Notes under the pieces: generated by a model | Told to the model about the DNA's origin: nothing | What the model saw: only the letters and a program-made list of their open reading frames with translations | Databases searched by the model: none | Translations under genes and position numbers: made by a program | Virus record (IMG/VR): IMGVR_UViG_3300030385_001471 | Span: 1-24,124 of that record | Length of the DNA: 24,124 bases | Reading direction: 5' to 3' (one strand) | DNA from: a virus | In this document: positions 2,103-13,073 of the stretch, one piece after another | Layout: each line of letters opens with the position of its first letter | How positions within the stretch are numbered: position 1 is the stretch's first letter

Positions 2103-4082
2103 ATGAGTGATTCTGTAACCAAACAGCTCGTTGCTGGTGAGCGTAAACCCGAACAAACCACGGAAGACGCGCCTGGAGCTTTAACGTGGACAGATAGAGC
2201 GCGACTAGCTAGCCAAGGTGCAACATATAACTTTTCGGATGAATTGATTGGTACAATACGAGGTTTGGTTTCTGGTGACTTAACTGTAGGGCAAGCTATA
2301 GATCTGGAACGCGAACAGTTAGCAAAATCTAGGAAAAAACCAGGGGCGTTAGCGACAGAAATTGGTGGTGCAGTTCTGCCTGGTTTATTATTGGCTCCAT
2401 TCAGTGGAGGTGCAAGCGCGGCTGTGAGTTTGGCAAACCTAGCAAAAATCGGTGCAGGGCAAGGTGCGTTAGCTACTGTAGGTGCAGCCGAGGGAGACCC
2501 CATTGAAAGAGTTGTAGAAAACCCATTAGCTATTGCCACTGGTGCAGCTATAGGTGGCGTTGGCGGTCCAGCAATAACGAAAACAGTGCAAGGCATGGGG
2601 GCATTGACGATTCCGCTACAAAGAATAACTGATTGGACAATGAGAAAGTTAGGAGGTCGCTTGCCGAGAGCGGCTGAACAAGAACTGCTAACGGTATTAG
2701 AGCAGAACAAGTTACCGATTGAGGAGGTAATAGATCGAGTCGGACAAGGCGAAATAATCCCAGATATGTCAGAAGAATTGGCAAAGTATGTGAGGGCACT
2801 CTATGCAAAAAGCGGTAGAGGCGCGGAAATAATCGCTTCTAATGTAACGAGAAGAAGCACAGAAAAAGCATCAGGTGTGCTTAAGCAGATGAAACAAGAT
2901 TTAGCGCCAGGTGCAGAAACTCCGAATGTTACAAGGGCCGTTAGGAAAACAGAACGAGCACTGAAAAAAGAATCTAGTGACGAATACGATGCTGTTTTCA
3001 ACACTGCGAAAGTGATTGACGAATCATTGAATAAGGAAATTGTTTCTTTGTTAAACGATGTCCCTGCATTGCGAGAGATAGCAACAAAACATTTGCAGTT
3101 GAAACGATTAAAGCCGTTGTTCGAAATAGTAGATGGTAAACTCAAGCTCATACGTTCTGCTACTTTAGAAGAAGGGGAAGTTATACGAAGGGCGTTAGCG
3201 GATGGAAAAATGAAACCCGGCAACGAAGGCGCGTTATGGGGAGATTTAGAAAGAGGATTGCGCACGAAATTAGATGACTTTGAACCCTCATTAAAAGCAG
3301 TGAGAGCAAAGTGGGCATCTATTATGGCGTCCAAAGATGCGTTCAAACAGGGCCGGAAGGCATTGCGAAACCCAGATATAGACGCAGAAGAAATCTTTAT
3401 AGAAAATCTGTTGGACTCTGGTAGCGAAGAAGCACTAGCGGCATATAGAGCAGGGGTAGCTGAATCGTTACGTAGAATATCAGGAAGGACTGTTGGTTCC
3501 CGAACAACATTGATAAAGCAGCTTAATCATCTCGATGAGCCTGAAAGAATAAATGCGCGGAGAGTTTTAGAGCGGTTATACCCAGATGATAAATTAGAAA
3601 ACATACTAAAAAAGCTGGATCAGGCGGCACGATCTATAAGAACGGCCCAAACGGTAAGAGGTGGCTCGCAAACAGCTATAACACAAGAAGCAGTCAAGCG
3701 TATAGGGTCGAACAGCTTAGTTCCTAACCTCAGAGCGATGTTTAGAGGTGATGTTATGGCACCAGTACGGCTGGTAACAGATGTACTGAAAAATAGAGCG
3801 CAAAATTTGAACCAAAGCCAATTAACTAGAATCTCCCAATTGGTGGTATCAGAAAATCCTATTGCGTTGCGCAAAGCGTTGACAGAGCCAAATGCTCAAC
3901 GAGTTATAATAAATGCCATAGAAAATGCTTATGGTTTGGTTCAGCGTGGTGCATCGTCCGCAGGGGTTATAACAGTATCCCCCTTACCGATGGAATCTGG
4001 TGCTATCGAACAATCGCAAAAGATAATGCGCCAAATACCTGAGCTTCTTGGCTTGGGTAAACGACGACAGAGCCAACAATGA
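2103..4082 (+). CDS. Large virion protein with Gly/Ala-rich hydrophobic region, probable ejection protein
   Basis: A 659-residue protein with its ATG a few bases after an AGGAAA ribosome-binding site (from 2091). Residues about 81-170 are rich in Gly, Ala, Leu and Val with glycine-zipper-like spacing (GALATEIGGAVLPGLLL, ATGAAIGGVGGPAI). This is the kind of region found in proteins that phages push into or through the host membrane. The rest is charged and helical (residues 200-600). No peptidoglycan hydrolase motif was found. The role as an injected DNA-delivery protein is inferred from the hydrophobic segment and the neighbouring virion genes, not from a recognised family. Confidence 0.75.
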   Translation: MSDSVTKQLVAGERKPEQTTEDAPGALTWTDRARLASQGATYNFSDELIGTIRGLVSGDLTVGQAIDLEREQLAKSRKKPGALATEIGGAVLPGLLLAPFSGGASAAVSLANLAKIGAGQGALATVGAAEGDPIERVVENPLAIATGAAIGGVGGPAITKTVQGMGALTIPLQRITDWTMRKLGGRLPRAAEQELLTVLEQNKLPIEEVIDRVGQGEIIPDMSEELAKYVRALYAKSGRGAEIIASNVTRRSTEKASGVLKQMKQDLAPGAETPNVTRAVRKTERALKKESSDEYDAVFNTAKVIDESLNKEIVSLLNDVPALREIATKHLQLKRLKPLFEIVDGKLKLIRSATLEEGEVIRRALADGKMKPGNEGALWGDLERGLRTKLDDFEPSLKAVRAKWASIMASKDAFKQGRKALRNPDIDAEEIFIENLLDSGSEEALAAYRAGVAESLRRISGRTVGSRTTLIKQLNHLDEPERINARRVLERLYPDDKLENILKKLDQAARSIRTAQTVRGGSQTAITQEAVKRIGSNSLVPNLRAMFRGDVMAPVRLVTDVLKNRAQNLNQSQLTRISQLVVSENPIALRKALTEPNAQRVIINAIENAYGLVQRGASSAGVITVSPLPMESGAIEQSQKIMRQIPELLGLGKRRQSQQ

Positions 4083-4107
4083 CCCCACACAAAGAAGGCG
4101 CTGACTA

Positions 4108-5034
4108 ATGCCCAATTACGGGTTGTTAGCTCAACAAGGCAGGAGAGAAGACAACGCCGCTATGGGCGGTCAGGTAGCTCATATCAGTGCGGTGGAAGCA
4201 GAACTACTCAGACTGTTGGGCGGTGCTGGTACTACCAACCCTATGACTGGACTGCCTGAGTATCAGATGGGCACTTATGCGCAGGGACCGGGCGTTGCTT
4301 TCACTGCTGGTTCTGGTTCTGCAGCAGCACAAGCAGCGGCAGCGGCGGCAAGAGCGATGGGGGGTAGAACTTCATACGTTGCCGGAGGAAGTCCTTCTGC
4401 TTTTAAGGGCATGGGCGCTCAAGTTAGTAGCGGAGGTATGGGTTTCACGGCTGGCGAATCGGCAGCAGCAGCACAAGCAGCAGCAGCAGCAGCAGCAGCA
4501 CAAGCAGCCAACGTAGCAGCAGTGCAAGGAGGCCGTCCAGGCGCAAGGGGAGAAGCTCTCTATGGTGATAGGTCATGGCAAGAATCAACACCTCTTTCTA
4601 AGGAAGGGGAAAATGTTGCCGAGGGGTTAATGAATTTTGTTACATCTTATGAGGGGCTAAAAAGTAAACTTGGATTGGGAAAACTTGCTGTTCCTCTCAC
4701 TGTTGATGCCGTAATTAGTCTAGGTCTTAAAAGTTTTGCAAAAGCATTAACAAATACGGGAGGTTATTACGGCGCGGGTCAGCCTGGTGGAGTGAATCCA
4801 TACTCAACGCCTGCAACTGTACAGTTAGCGGATGTCATTGCTGCGCCGCTTGTAAAACCCGTTGAGGGTGAGCCGTTTATTCTTCCAACAGACCAGAAAG
4901 CTTTGGAAGATGCAAAATTACTAGAATTAGCGTTACTAGAGCTATTACCAAATATAGAAGGATTTCCTCCAGAAATAGCCTCTATCATGCAACAATTTGT
5001 GGAAGAAAAACAACCATTAGGAAGCACAGCATGA
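4108..5034 (+). CDS. Ala/Gln/Gly-rich low-complexity virion protein
   Basis: A 308-residue protein starting at ATG 4108 after AAGAAGG. It begins MPNYGLLAQQ, and the two genes at 5431 and 5820 also begin MPN. Residues about 65-140 hold two related low-complexity blocks, FTAGSGSAAAQAAAAAARA and FTAGESAAAAQ followed by an Ala run, separated by a Gly/Ser linker; they are encoded by GCA/CAG triplet repeats. The C-terminal half is ordinary, with a Leu-rich acidic helix (residues about 265-290). It probably belongs to the virion by position. Its stop overlaps the next start as ATGA. No family recognised. Confidence 0.7.
   Translation: MPNYGLLAQQGRREDNAAMGGQVAHISAVEAELLRLLGGAGTTNPMTGLPEYQMGTYAQGPGVAFTAGSGSAAAQAAAAAARAMGGRTSYVAGGSPSAFKGMGAQVSSGGMGFTAGESAAAAQAAAAAAAAQAANVAAVQGGRPGARGEALYGDRSWQESTPLSKEGENVAEGLMNFVTSYEGLKSKLGLGKLAVPLTVDAVISLGLKSFAKALTNTGGYYGAGQPGGVNPYSTPATVQLADVIAAPLVKPVEGEPFILPTDQKALEDAKLLELALLELLPNIEGFPPEIASIMQQFVEEKQPLGSTA
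4319..4509. repeat. GCA/CAG triplet-repeat tracts, two blocks
   Basis: Two blocks rich in GCA triplets, about 4319-4351 and 4462-4509, encode Ala runs broken by single Gln residues (AAAQAAA). The second is the purer, with an interrupted GCA array of 16 triplets. Slippage at such arrays makes length variation between related phages likely. Confidence 0.85.
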
Positions 5035-5419
5035 TTAAAGAACTTTTTTAATATCGGCTCTTACGCTAACAGCGGAACCGTTGTCAGCGGAACACAATGC
5101 CGTAATCCCACACCCTTGTGATTCAGGAGTCCAGCTACAAACACTGACGGATGCCTGGTCACGTCGATTTAATGCGGAATCCCGCGATCTTACTGAAGAA
5201 CAAAGATTTAATTTCCTTGAGAATGTCCCAATAGATGATGTCGATAATATCCGTGTATTCCGGTCAAACGTGCAGCCCGGTTATGCGGTTGTGTTAAGCT
5301 CGACATTCGAGAACTTCCTCGATGGGAAACTATTGGTCCAGATGCAGTGCGTTAAAAGGATCAACGGTGCCTTATCGATAATCTACAATCCTCCAGCATT
5401 CGAAGAACTTATTAAGTGA
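5031..5419 (+). pseudogene. Secreted-type protein interrupted by a one-base shift in a T run
   Basis: An ATG at 5031 overlaps the upstream stop (ATGA) and has AGGAAG (5019-5024) six bases before it, so the start is well supported. It reads MIKELF and stops at TAA 5049, inside a run of six T (5044-5049). Shifting by -1, or adding one T, joins it to a frame open to 5419, giving MIKELF-LISALTLTAEPLSA then EHNAV. That is a plausible signal peptide with an A-x-A-like cleavage site (LSA/E). The downstream frame has no ATG before its middle; only TTG 5081 would serve as an independent start. The 128-residue product would be exported. Sequencing error, real mutation and -1 frameshifting are all possible. 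Function unknown. Confidence 0.6.
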
Positions 5420-5430
5420 GGTAACTACCA

Positions 5431-5820
5431 ATGCCAAACCGAGCAGATTACAGAGGCGCATTACAAACAAGTCCGTTGGCGAGTGCTATTGTTGCGCCGC
5501 CTCCGCCGCCGCCTCCACCATCTTCTTTTCCGCAACAGGTAGGGCCTGATATTCCTGGCATACTTGGGAGGAGTGGCCCTCCTACACCACCGGCGGGAGA
5601 ACAGAATGTTTTGATGCGTTTACTAAATGCTTTGACAAATCGCAGCGAAGACCCAAGAGAAGCAAAAATGAATGCCATTGCGCGGAGAACTGGGGAAGAC
5701 CCTGCTGCTTTGCTAGGACTATCTGAGGAACAATTAGACCGTGTATATAGGGCCGTAATGAGCCAGCCTCCTGTTGGCGAACCACCTCCTGCTATACCAC
5801 GAGCCAGTGATATAGATTAA
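5431..5820 (+). CDS. Small protein with MPNRADY tag and polyproline tract
   Basis: A 129-residue protein starting at ATG 5431 with GAGGT eight bases upstream. Its first seven residues, MPNRADY, and a nearby TSPLA are shared with the next gene, and the first 20 bases of both genes are identical. After the tag comes a run of eight prolines (residues about 23-30) in a Pro-rich linker. A helical segment (residues about 55-110) follows, and then another Pro-rich end. No enzyme motif. The shared head suggests partial gene duplication or a common docking tag in the virion. Its stop overlaps the next ATG (TAATG). Confidence 0.65.
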   Translation: MPNRADYRGALQTSPLASAIVAPPPPPPPPSSFPQQVGPDIPGILGRSGPPTPPAGEQNVLMRLLNALTNRSEDPREAKMNAIARRTGEDPAALLGLSEEQLDRVYRAVMSQPPVGEPPPAIPRASDID

Positions 5821-6488
5821 TGCCAAACCGAGCAGATTATGGGGATGCTGGTGCATTGGCTAACTTGCTGGGTATGCAACCGCAAAAGACGAGTCCATTG
5901 GCGACATCCTTGGCCGGAACGAATTACACTATAGCGGATCGTAAAACTCCGACTCTAAAAGAAAAACTAATGCAAAGTGCTTACCTTGCAACCCCAGAAG
6001 AATCAGCATTGGAATTTGCCGAAGGCGATTTTCGATGGGGAGAGACAAAAAAAGGCGGGGATTCACCGAGAGATAAACCTGTTGTCTATATAAACTATGA
6101 CAAGTTTAAGGAAGGACTAGGACAGAAAGAACTAACGCCAGCACAAGTTGAAAAGTATCATCTTGGCGAAACCTTACACAATCTCAAAGATGTGGAACCA
6201 GAGACATACGAACGGCTAATGGAATCCGCCTTAGATAGTCCTGAATATAGAAAATGGATGGAAGATTCTTATCAATACGCCCTCAATGATCCATCTTATG
6301 AGGAAACAAGAGATATTAATGAATGGCACAGAGAGTCACGCTTCGATCAAGTTATCGGAGGTTATCTAGGTGCTGGTGATGAGGATTATCCAACTCTTAA
6401 AGACTGGTCACGCGATATGCCAGGTTATTCCAGTGACAAATTCAGAAAAGAATTAGAAAAGCTGCGAACGAGATTGGATATGGAATGA
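5820..6488 (+). CDS. Unknown protein with MPNRADY tag, acidic helical body
   Basis: A 222-residue protein that starts inside the upstream stop codon (TAATG). The N-terminus repeats the MPNRADY...TSPLA head of the previous protein. The body is different: a helical acidic domain with YHLGETLHNL (residues about 110-120), PETYERLMESALDSPEYRKWM and FDQVIGGYLGAGD, and a C-terminal charged helix. The HLGETLH stretch recalls metal-site patterns but is not HExxH, so no activity is claimed. It sits between virion and lysis genes and ends in an ATGA overlap with the next gene. Confidence 0.65.
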   Translation: MPNRADYGDAGALANLLGMQPQKTSPLATSLAGTNYTIADRKTPTLKEKLMQSAYLATPEESALEFAEGDFRWGETKKGGDSPRDKPVVYINYDKFKEGLGQKELTPAQVEKYHLGETLHNLKDVEPETYERLMESALDSPEYRKWMEDSYQYALNDPSYEETRDINEWHRESRFDQVIGGYLGAGDEDYPTLKDWSRDMPGYSSDKFRKELEKLRTRLDME

Positions 6489-6691
6489 ACGTCGAAGTAT
6501 TCGCAGCCGAGCTTCATTCTCACGTGGAGCATTGCAAGGAGAGGAATGAAATAAACTCACAGAGATTAGCGGAAATGAAACAGGAGTTGACTCGTTTGAA
6601 TGCCAGACTTGACAAGCTCCTATGGGTTTTTCTAGGTTTACTCGCAATTGCAGTAGGCCAGTTTATATTTACTGGTGTCCCGTGGCAGTAA
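6485..6691 (+). CDS. Small coiled-coil protein with C-terminal membrane segment
   Basis: A 68-residue protein beginning in an ATGA overlap with the upstream stop. Residues about 1-43 form a charged, heptad-like helix (EMKQELTRLNARLDKL). Residues about 45-62 are one hydrophobic span (LLWVFLGLLAIAVGQFIF), then a short end. This helix-plus-C-terminal-anchor layout is seen in XhlA-like phage membrane proteins encoded next to holins and endolysins, and the next gene is an endopeptidase. The role in lysis is inferred from topology and position. It overlaps the start of the endopeptidase gene by ten bases. Confidence 0.6.
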   Translation: MNVEVFAAELHSHVEHCKERNEINSQRLAEMKQELTRLNARLDKLLWVFLGLLAIAVGQFIFTGVPWQ

Positions 6692-11328: not shown

Positions 11329-11668
11329 ACAGGAACTCCATTTCCAGGTCGCGGATTATCTTAGGTTAGCATTGCCGACTCAAACGGTCTGGCATCATTC
11401 ACCCAACGAAGGACGCCGCCGCCCTCAGTATAACAAGAAGCTGGCTCGTCTGGGATTAAGGGCCGGATGGCCTGATATAGAAATTGTCCACAAAGGCCGT
11501 ATTATATTCATTGAATTGAAGACACCTAAAGGGCGGGTCTCACCAGCACAGAAACAGTGCCATAATGACCTTATGCTGGCCGGGGCTGTGGTCAAGATAT
11601 GCCGAAGTTTTCAGGAGGTTCAGGACTTTTTAACGATGTCGATCGGGGGGATAAATGGACATCACTAA
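11321..11668 (+). CDS. VRR-NUC domain nuclease
   Basis: 115 residues from ATG 11321 (MTEQELHFQVADYLRLAL). The VRR-NUC domain, a small PD-(D/E)XK nuclease, is clear: HHSPNEGRR, GLRAGWPD with D52, IFIELKTPKG with E65 and K67, SPAQKQ with Q77, and AGAVVKICRSFQEVQDFL at the end. Stand-alone VRR-NUC proteins of phages cut branched or junction DNA in replication and recombination. An in-frame ATG at 11294 lacks family resemblance. No ribosome-binding site precedes 11321, so coupling to the upstream (broken) gene is likely. Confidence 0.85.
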   Translation: MTEQELHFQVADYLRLALPTQTVWHHSPNEGRRRPQYNKKLARLGLRAGWPDIEIVHKGRIIFIELKTPKGRVSPAQKQCHNDLMLAGAVVKICRSFQEVQDFLTMSIGGINGHH

Positions 11669-12011
11669 AAATGCAGTATGGGTTTTGGGCGTAAAATCCG
11701 TCCTAATGTCGATGTATAAGATGCCGGAGGAGAAGGCTCGGGGTATCATTGGTAAGTGGGGCCGAGATTACCCACCAGAAACCGTTTTAGAAGCCCTTAT
11801 AGCGCTGGTAAAGAATGAGCCTATTGATCCTATTCCCTATATGGAAGCATGCCTGAAAGCGGCTCCCAAGCCGGTTAAACAAGAGGAACCCACAGGCCAA
11901 TGGGCCATGAGGGTCAAAGCCTGGGAAAACAAGCAAATGTGGCCGCTTATGTGGGGGCCACAGCCAGGTGAGGAAGGCTGTCAGTGTCCTCCCCATTTAA
12001 TCGGTAATTGA
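11655..12011 (+). CDS. DnaT/DnaD-like small replication protein, tentative
   Basis: 118 residues, overlapping the nuclease gene by 14 bases. The first 70 residues are helical: KARGIIGKWGRDYPPETVLEALIALVKNEPIDPIPYMEACLKAA. Repeats of the form A..IIGKW.....V.EAL......PI.YI.A.L are common in the C-terminal parts of phage replication initiators and helicase loaders. A Pro/Trp-rich end follows (WAMRVKAWENKQMWPLMWGPQPG), with two close Cys. Assignment to replication rests on this resemblance and the neighbouring VRR-NUC gene, and is moderate at best. Confidence 0.55.
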   Translation: MDITKNAVWVLGVKSVLMSMYKMPEEKARGIIGKWGRDYPPETVLEALIALVKNEPIDPIPYMEACLKAAPKPVKQEEPTGQWAMRVKAWENKQMWPLMWGPQPGEEGCQCPPHLIGN

Positions 12012-12090
12012 GTGGTAATTCGTTTCCGGTTGACAGGACGGACTCTAAATAGCCTATTTCGTGTCATATTGACAAAAGGAGAGATTAAGC

Positions 12091-12345
12091 GAGGCAACTG
12101 ACGGGTAAGACGTAGCGGTTGTCTTTTAAGGGTTACTAGGGCGCGATCATAGCTCAAAGGGGAGGTCGAAAGCGCAAACCCCGATCGCAGTCAAACGTAT
12201 ATTGGCTGAAGTAGTGCGCGACTGACCAGGGATACGATACCACTGGTTAGACTTGATGCGACGGGCTGGCTCCAAAGGCTAAGATCGCTAGAGTATAGAT
12301 CAACCTTGGCAATGTTCGCTGAGGCTGATCGATCTATACTTAAGC
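12091..12345 (+). ncRNA. Candidate structured RNA or origin: four stem-loops
   Basis: Stem 1 pairs 12091-12100 with 12116-12125, ten pairs including three G-U. Stem 2 pairs GCGATC (12143-12148) with GATCGC (12183-12188) and encloses GGGG/CCCC (12159-12162 with 12179-12182). Stem 3 pairs CTGACCAG (12222-12229) with CTGGTTAG (12243-12250), one G-U. Stem 4 pairs AGTATAGATC (12292-12301) with GATCTATACT (12331-12340), extended outward to 12287/12345 with one mismatch. The G-U pairs favour RNA. I recognise no known RNA family. It is not a tRNA: no acceptor, anticodon and T arms can be fitted. Confidence 0.35.
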
Positions 12346-12367
12346 TCAGGACTTCACCAAAGGCTAA
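12272..12367. repeat. 11-base direct repeat flanking the largest stem-loop
   Basis: CCAAAGGCTAA occurs at 12272-12282 and again at 12357-12367, one copy on each side of the 12287-12345 hairpin. The copies are 85 bases apart in the same orientation. They could be protein-binding sites or the footprint of a small insertion. Confidence 0.6.
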
Positions 12368-12385
12368 TATATAACTAAAGGGAAA

Positions 12386-12532
12386 ATGGAAACTAAAAGC
12401 CTGGCTTGGAAAGCAGGATTCAAAGCAGCGGAATATGCTAAAACGGTGCGAGATAATCCATTTAAGGGAAAAATAGATCGGGCGGAATTTCGTGAAGGTT
12501 TTTATGAATGGCTCAAAATGGCTCAAAAATGA
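12386..12532 (+). CDS. Tiny Rmf-like phage protein
   Basis: 48 residues from ATG 12386 after AAAGGG (spacing short, three bases): METKSLAWKAGFKAAEYAK...NPFKGK...EFREGFYEWLK. The pattern AW..G..AA......NP........F..GF..W resembles ribosome-modulation-factor-like small proteins, often met in phages. The resemblance is by eye and weak. Its stop overlaps the next start (ATGA), so the pair is coupled. It is the first gene after the structured non-coding island. Confidence 0.5.
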   Translation: METKSLAWKAGFKAAEYAKTVRDNPFKGKIDRAEFREGFYEWLKMAQK

Positions 12533-12633
12533 TCGAGTGCCCTTGGTGTGGTCAGCTTACCAGGCTAATACAAATCCACGGTCATTGGGAATGTTCAAAT
12601 TGCCATCGTGTGGTTATTGATTGCTGTGATTGA
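12529..12633 (+). CDS. Tiny zinc-ribbon protein
   Basis: 34 residues in an ATGA overlap with the previous gene. It reads MIECPWCGQLTRL...HGHWECSNCHRVVIDCCD. Two CxxC pairs about 15 residues apart form a minimal zinc ribbon, with two extra Cys at the end. Such tiny ribbons are frequent in phages and have no assigned role. Confidence 0.55.
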   Translation: MIECPWCGQLTRLIQIHGHWECSNCHRVVIDCCD

Positions 12634-12802
12634 GCTTAAAACACCATCCCTGAAACCCGGTTCGAAGGTCGAGGAGTATGTCATTGATCTGCATGGGAAA
12701 ATGTGGGAGCTTATTGCTATTATTGAACCTGGATTAACCGGCGATTGCCTTGAAGTTGCAACCAGGGTTATTGAAAAACATGCCAAGAGAACGACTTCCT
12801 AA
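12626..12802 (+). CDS. Small unknown protein
   Basis: 58 residues from GTG 12626 (MIELKTPSLKPGSKVEEYVIDLHGKMWELIAIIEPG). The same frame opens earlier at GTG 12608, but 12626 overlaps the zinc-ribbon stop by eight bases, the arrangement seen elsewhere in this genome. The product is short and mixed strand/helix. No ribosome-binding site is evident. It overlaps the next gene by 23 bases. No function can be suggested. Confidence 0.45.
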   Translation: MIELKTPSLKPGSKVEEYVIDLHGKMWELIAIIEPGLTGDCLEVATRVIEKHAKRTTS

Positions 12803-13073
12803 CCGGCGCCCTACAATTACCCACGATTTAGAATTTGGCGGAGACCGTTATCATGTTTCAATCGGTTATACTTTATTGGCAGAACCTAAAGAGGTGTTCA
12901 TTCGGGGAGCTAAAACTGGCTCTCACCTTGACGAACTCTTGGATGACGCAGCGGTTTGTATTTCCATCGCTTTGCAAAATGGCGTAAATGCGGAGGAATT
13001 ACGTCGAAGTCTGGGCGACTCCATTGTCAGCAGGGTTGTAGGATTACTGGATGGTCCGCCGAAACTATCGTGA
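12780..13073 (+). CDS. Stand-alone TSCPD-domain protein
   Basis: 97 residues from ATG 12780 (MPRERLPNRRPTITHDLEFGG). It matches the TSCPD domain found at the C-terminus of class II (NrdJ-type) ribonucleotide reductases: Y.VSIGY...AEPKEVFIRGAKTGSHLDELLDDAAVCISIALQNGVNAEELRRSL. No reductase catalytic domain is present in the window, so this is an isolated accessory domain. The frame is open back to 12750 but those residues overlap the previous gene. It might act on nucleotide metabolism or a host reductase. Family call good, role unknown. Confidence 0.75.
   Translation: MPRERLPNRRPTITHDLEFGGDRYHVSIGYTLLAEPKEVFIRGAKTGSHLDELLDDAAVCISIALQNGVNAEELRRSLGDSIVSRVVGLLDGPPKLS

Follow-up and report, generated by a model that had tools for sequence, protein, structure and literature searches.

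The persistent hybrid formed by RNA II of plasmid ColE1 opens the origin and lets synthesis be primed with no initiator from the plasmid (PMC5043065). Structured RNAs of other kinds are known from phages, mobile elements and operon leaders, among them GOLLD, ROOL, HEARO/omegaRNA, the bridge RNA of IS110, and the antitermination RNAs HK022 put and EAR. We analyzed a window of 24,124 bases, which is the complete IMG/VR record IMGVR_UViG_3300030385_001471. In its early operon, a non-coding gap of 374 bases (12012-12385) lies between a gene for a 118-aa protein (stop at 12011) and a gene for a 48-aa protein (ATG at 12386). An earlier note, made from the letters of the DNA, had singled out this gap as a possible novel small RNA, a leader or an origin. 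It is nearly certain that the gap holds a real, structured and conserved + strand RNA of about 280 nt with a multi-branched fold. A short segment in the loop of one of its hairpins (B) recurs just 3' of the stem that closes the structure (B'). Our preferred explanation for the phages, to which we give a probability of roughly 35%, is that loop B would hybridise with the template at B' and that the resulting R-loop would open a replication origin.

The gap is present as the earlier note described it, with no conserved reading frame. Plausible genes are absent from the 374 bases, and a protein-coding explanation was rejected, as the overlapping minus-strand open reading frames (ORFs; e.g. 12191-12526) are not conserved. 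Phage relatives reached via the terminase have this region in the same location, namely L118 (78.8% identity over 283 nt) and L078 (72%). L151, closely related to L078, came from pattern scans, and L152 from a search of the longer record that lies behind L072. The homologues, from three further phage lineages (four contigs), are all flanked by the same pair of genes. Among these phages the flanking proteins are 30-57% identical, and the RNA is conserved more than the proteins on either side; positions 12012-12090 fall outside it. A covariance model built from four sequences recovered L152, which it did not contain, at 197 bits, and matched the full length of the RNA in an otherwise unrelated phage, L253 (36.7 bits, E 1e-9). 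A second model that included L253 matched seven of 385 alphaproteobacterial genomes (E 1.7e-20 to 5e-7) and none of the 369 genomes of a gammaproteobacterial class sample. A within-order scan, with two of 76 genomes positive, gave one further alphaproteobacterial genome, for a bacterial total of eight. The RNA is sporadic within orders (2/76 in one, 1/10 in another). Our collection thus stands at 14 members from at most 13 distinct lineages, of which 13 aligned members enter the covariation counts; the bacterial members lie in partly draft genomes. BLASTN returned no homologue among annotated phages or plasmids, and a genome pattern scan gave chance hits only. Relatives sharing only the VRR-NUC nuclease were tried as carriers and rejected, the RNA being absent there. 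The RNA family spans phages, prophages and genomic islands of Alphaproteobacteria.

The folding energy of the whole gap is only mildly low against shuffled sequences (z -1.3). For the conserved core (12090-12361) z is -3.07, and none of 200 shuffles folded as well. The RNAalifold consensus contains 81 pairs, of which 21 are compensated with four sequences and 30 with five. Its energy is -86.9 kcal/mol on the + strand versus -47.7 kcal/mol on the minus strand, and therefore the folded molecule is the + strand RNA; a minus-strand RNA was rejected for its much weaker consensus fold. The same asymmetry bears on the idea that the functional fold is one of DNA, such as a single-stranded origin or packaging hairpins. 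The origin-like place beside a replication-type gene would suit a DNA fold. The strand asymmetry argues against it, as do the many conserved G-U pairs (one is kept in 12 of 13 members), which the earlier note had read as a sign of RNA, and we find a DNA fold hardly credible. Two-sided compensatory changes occur in 65 of the 81 predicted pairs (248 cells, versus 73 in shuffles). All three refuting conditions that the earlier note had named, on compensatory changes, on folding relative to shuffled sequence and on a conserved reading frame, were checked and came out in favor of the RNA, and its proposal of a novel RNA is supported by the covariation in homologues together with the independent chain of covariance-model discovery. 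Over the 13 members 91.6% of cells pair, compared with 65.8% after shuffling and 36-43% after sliding; the first figure is inflated by the fitting of this alignment to the covariance model, and earlier unfitted alignments agree.

The structured core runs on the + strand from the first hairpin to the B' tail (12091-12367), with homologues in L118, L078, L151, L152, L253 and the bacterial genomes. A 5' hairpin, P1, is followed by the closing stem P2, which encloses the five hairpins P3, P4, P5, P6 and P7. P1 (12091-12125) has a conserved loop, GGGUAAGACGUAGC, and forms helix 1, for which 92.9-94.9% of cells are paired in two alignments, with two-sided changes in 8-10 of 13 pairs. The 5' side of P2 (12130-12142, as 12130-12134 and 12139-12142; helices 2 and 3) pairs with its 3' side at 12344-12354. 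P3 (12143-12188; helices 4-5) has a conserved RUCGAAAG internal segment and two-sided changes in 10/10 pairs, and P4 (12189-12207; helix 6) has them in 6/6 pairs. The loop of P4 may kiss that of P1, the two reading ACGU/ACGU in most members and ACGG/CCGU in L152. A pseudoknot of UACU with AGUA was rejected on inspection, as the bacterial members do not consistently retain it. Ahead of P5 lies an AAGUAG segment (12208-12217), near-invariant in 13 sequences, and a weakly supported helix 7 (66.7% paired); P5 itself (12222-12250; helix 8) shows two-sided changes in 9/9 pairs. P6 (12258-12288; helices 9-11) has the form GCGACGG..GGCUCC..GAUCGC and holds segment B; its GGCUC[C/G][G/A] is present in 14 of 14 members. 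P7 (12289-12343; helices 12-13) is a long terminal hairpin with an internal loop and two-sided changes in 16/19 pairs. The four stem-loops that the earlier note had drawn lie very nearly where it put them and are P1, P3, P5 and P7; it had missed P4, P6 and the closing stem.

Every member has in its P6 loop a segment of 8-10 bases that recurs immediately 3' of the closing stem. In the window, segment B (CCAAAGGCUAA, 12272-12282), in the apical part of P6, is an exact copy of B' (12357-12367), which lies in the 3' tail immediately past the closing stem, within ..UUCACCAAAGGCUAA. The sequence of the twin varies among lineages, yet B and B' agree inside each: both copies read CCAAAGGCTAA in the window, and the B/B' pair is CCGACTGTTAA/CCAACTGTTAA in L118, CCGTAGGGTCAGA/CCATAGGGTCAGA in L253, CCGATGAGCA/CCAATGAGCA in L271, CCGTTGAGCG/CCATTGAGCG in L275 and CCAACGAGAG/CCAACGAGCG in L284. 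B' tracks B across 12 lineages, with agreement at 89 of 108 positions, where 100,000 permutations averaged 52.9 and never exceeded 77 (p<1e-5). Because both segments were positioned manually in the alignment, the exact p-value varies with that choice, though the effect is a large one. L276 and L270 show the poorest match, and the 14th member also has matching segments. The window has just these two copies, and neither a further copy nor an antisense copy of the B' core was found in the records searched. No other site that B might target was found in the phage genome, and that idea was rejected. Translational bypass between B and B' was rejected as well, on inspection of L253, where stop codons lie next to each site and no open reading frame leads in.

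The twin might instead belong to a riboswitch-like translational switch, in which the 5' strand of P6 would pair with either B or B' and so expose or hide the start of the next gene. In phage lineages the 5' strand can pair with B, B' is nearly identical to B, and B' lies 20-40 nt ahead of the next start codon. Mutually exclusive pairings of the 5' strand with B and with B' are not conserved in the family, however: the complementarity to B is confined to some phage members and is lacking in most bacterial ones, and the identity of B and B' reaches over unpaired loop positions. A switch of this kind is quite improbable in our judgment. As the pairing of the P6 5' strand with B is not general, it does not explain the B/B' match; both copies must match something else, and the template strand at B' fits.

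We therefore considered a mechanism in which the RNA acts on its own template. As the polymerase passes B', the upstream RNA, already folded, would present B, and, behind the polymerase, B would hybridise with the template strand of the DNA at B'. This pairing would start a persistent RNA-DNA hybrid (R-loop) and open the duplex as ColE1 RNA II does, and the opened site would serve the phage as a replication origin or primer. Pairing of the P6 loop with the template strand at B' calls for a same-sense duplicate in the loop and the 3' flank, and all members have upstream, as RNA II does, a segment that could hybridise with the template close to the 3' end of the RNA. The 118-aa protein (11655-12011, + strand) may contribute to such a mechanism. 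It resembles the C-terminal-type domain of phage replication initiators (DnaD/DUF1376-like), has no N-terminal winged helix, and is encoded directly 5' of the RNA in all four lineages (the window and its three sisters). Its WGPKPGE.GC end is shared with winged-helix replication proteins. In L253 the RNA stands directly before a gene for a 149-aa protein, also without a winged helix; the best relatives of this protein among phages include some annotated as RepA-like replication initiators. Thus, in two lineages the RNA looks to adjoin an initiator C-terminal domain that is without its DNA-binding half; in the corresponding region, the related phages Pam5 and EBPR podovirus 2 (gp8) carry full winged-helix initiators. 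In the window we recognised no helicase, primase or polymerase. The 118-aa protein could then aid helicase loading in place of a DNA-binding initiator. Among the small RNA, leader and origin that the earlier note had left side by side, the twin and the replication-like neighbors favor an origin- or primer-type role, short of proof.

Several points weigh against R-loop opening. Segment B is just 8-10 nt long. The assignment of the 118-aa protein is weak: profile matches to a DUF1376 protein and others reach E 0.02-0.06, the best Foldseek matches of its predicted structure (DUF1376, DnaD-like and replisome organiser proteins) have E>0.1, and a fold search of the Protein Data Bank (PDB) found nothing. 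Two Rhizobium phages, L262 (2492-2830) and L267 (2992-3330), have a gene for just the C-terminal domain of an initiator, lacking the winged helix, and do not carry this RNA. No recognised replication gene lies beside the RNA in prophage L277, in the BREX island L278, in the restriction-modification island L280 or in island L285. The support is computational. In ColE1 an upstream loop of RNA II contacts the template strand. The review we cite for ColE1 describes the persistent hybrid, not this loop contact (PMC5043065).

The settings of the other members are varied. The RNA lies in prophages with a serine recombinase and a ParB-methylase (L277) or a terminase small subunit (L281), upstream of the BREX gene BrxA and flanked on its opposite side by an XRE-like regulator (L278, region 3665-6666), in an island with an integrase and type I restriction (hsdMSR; L280), downstream of tRNA genes (L282 and L283), and after an AlpA-like gene in an island (L285). 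In the contexts examined it is mostly upstream of same-strand operon genes, namely the early operon of the window, the rep gene of L253, the BrxA-containing operon of L278, hsdMSR of L280, and phage genes in L277 and L281. In L078, P1 begins where the preceding gene ends, at its stop codon, and the RNA there therefore belongs to the operon transcript. This arrangement would fit a cis-acting leader or processive antitermination element, at the start of or inside long operons, that influences RNA polymerase or the expression of genes downstream in the manner of the put or EAR RNAs. Such a role leaves the matching and co-variation of B and B' unexplained, and put and EAR elements are much shorter than the gap RNA; we hold it possible, if somewhat unlikely. 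As a separate observation, a NusG-like gene was recognised by eye downstream of the RNA in phage L253 (4926-5474) and in prophage L281 (4359-4865), and might bear on antitermination.

The operon transcript could also be processed into a trans-acting RNA (guide-like, bridge-RNA-like or a ribozyme), whose P6 loop would recognise DNA or RNA with the B' sequence. The large, ornate fold with its long conserved unpaired stretches is in keeping with this, as are the integrases or recombinases in L277 and L280 and the layout of B', like that of a protospacer flanked by a conserved CACC. The RNA is accompanied by no constant partner protein family, however; IS110, TnpB, IscB and reverse transcriptase genes were not noticed near members, and no other occurrence of the B' core turned up in the records searched. 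We regard a trans-acting RNA as unlikely. Returning to R-loop opening, one may generalize it to a widespread class of mobile-element RNAs that would open DNA at their own locus by looping an internal copy of the 3' flank onto the template, and that in some phages would replace the DNA-binding half of the initiator. This broader proposal is tentative and, in our estimate, doubtful.

As the earlier note had judged by eye, no known RNA family or tRNA fits the gap. With Rfam 15, no family reached its gathering threshold in the window, where a single chance match appeared at E<=10, and none matched the RNA in L253 or in L270-L276; ARAGORN and Rfam found no tRNA or tmRNA at the RNA. The HEARO model in Rfam gave no match. 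An IS110/IS1111 recombinase was not noticed among the ORFs around members, which were inspected without a dedicated model search. The family thus appears to be uncatalogued, being absent from Rfam 15; our search of open-access papers was small, and an unregistered description elsewhere is possible.

To the extent that the contigs cover it, the gene order around the RNA is shared by the window and its three sister lineages: an HTH regulator, a VRR-NUC nuclease, the 118-aa protein, the RNA and the 48-aa protein, followed by a zinc-ribbon or cargo gene and then by a TSCPD protein. The 48-aa protein (12386-12532, + strand), conserved in four lineages, bears a weak likeness to ribosome modulation factor (RMF; E 0.0024 in L118). 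The stand-alone TSCPD protein (12783-13073 in the window) is like the C-terminal tail of B12-dependent ribonucleotide reductase (E 6e-11), and is common to Rhodobacter phages, EBPR podovirus 2 and others. Between these two genes is a variable slot (window, 12508-12802; L152, 274-1293, minus strand; L151, 2751-3296, minus strand; L074, 60-560), filled among sister phages by a small zinc-ribbon protein, a radical SAM protein or a GNAT-like acetyltransferase. In Pseudanabaena phage Pam5 (L156), an unannotated winged-helix (HTH_36) gene that resembles replication initiators (34535-35139) contains repeats of GGGGTCAGAATGTGACCCC, likely an iteron origin.

The RNA adds a large structured family to those of phages, prophages and defence-carrying alphaproteobacterial islands, and its matched B and B' segments are an unusual and directly testable design. 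If B and B' drive R-loop formation, phages would possess an RNA-based system of origin opening; if the RNA controls expression instead, it would be a common regulator of phage early genes and of BREX and restriction islands. In comparison with ColE1 RNA II, the gap RNA is likewise a structured untranslated RNA at a proposed origin, with an upstream segment of the same sense as a downstream template-encoded sequence, which could hybridise with the template. In ColE1, priming from the hybrid involves RNase H and Pol I, and an antisense RNA I acts as counter-transcript. The two RNAs are unrelated in sequence and structure and differ in size (about 280 nt versus 550 nt); no RNA I-like antisense is known for the gap RNA, in whose region a crude promoter scan gave no hits, and its replication role is putative. 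With GOLLD, ROOL and HEARO/omegaRNA it shares the character of a large multi-branched noncoding RNA of phages and mobile elements, and differs from them in having no Rfam match and no IscB/TnpB partner that we noticed. We know of no B/B' twin described for these RNAs. The HK022 put and EAR RNAs are also structured and located in phage or operon leaders, whereas the gap RNA is far larger and carries twin segments that put and EAR do not explain. The bridge RNA of IS110 likewise has a loop sequence matched to DNA beside the RNA gene. It has both target and donor loops, whereas the gap RNA, with no IS110 recombinase noticed nearby, has a single matched site.
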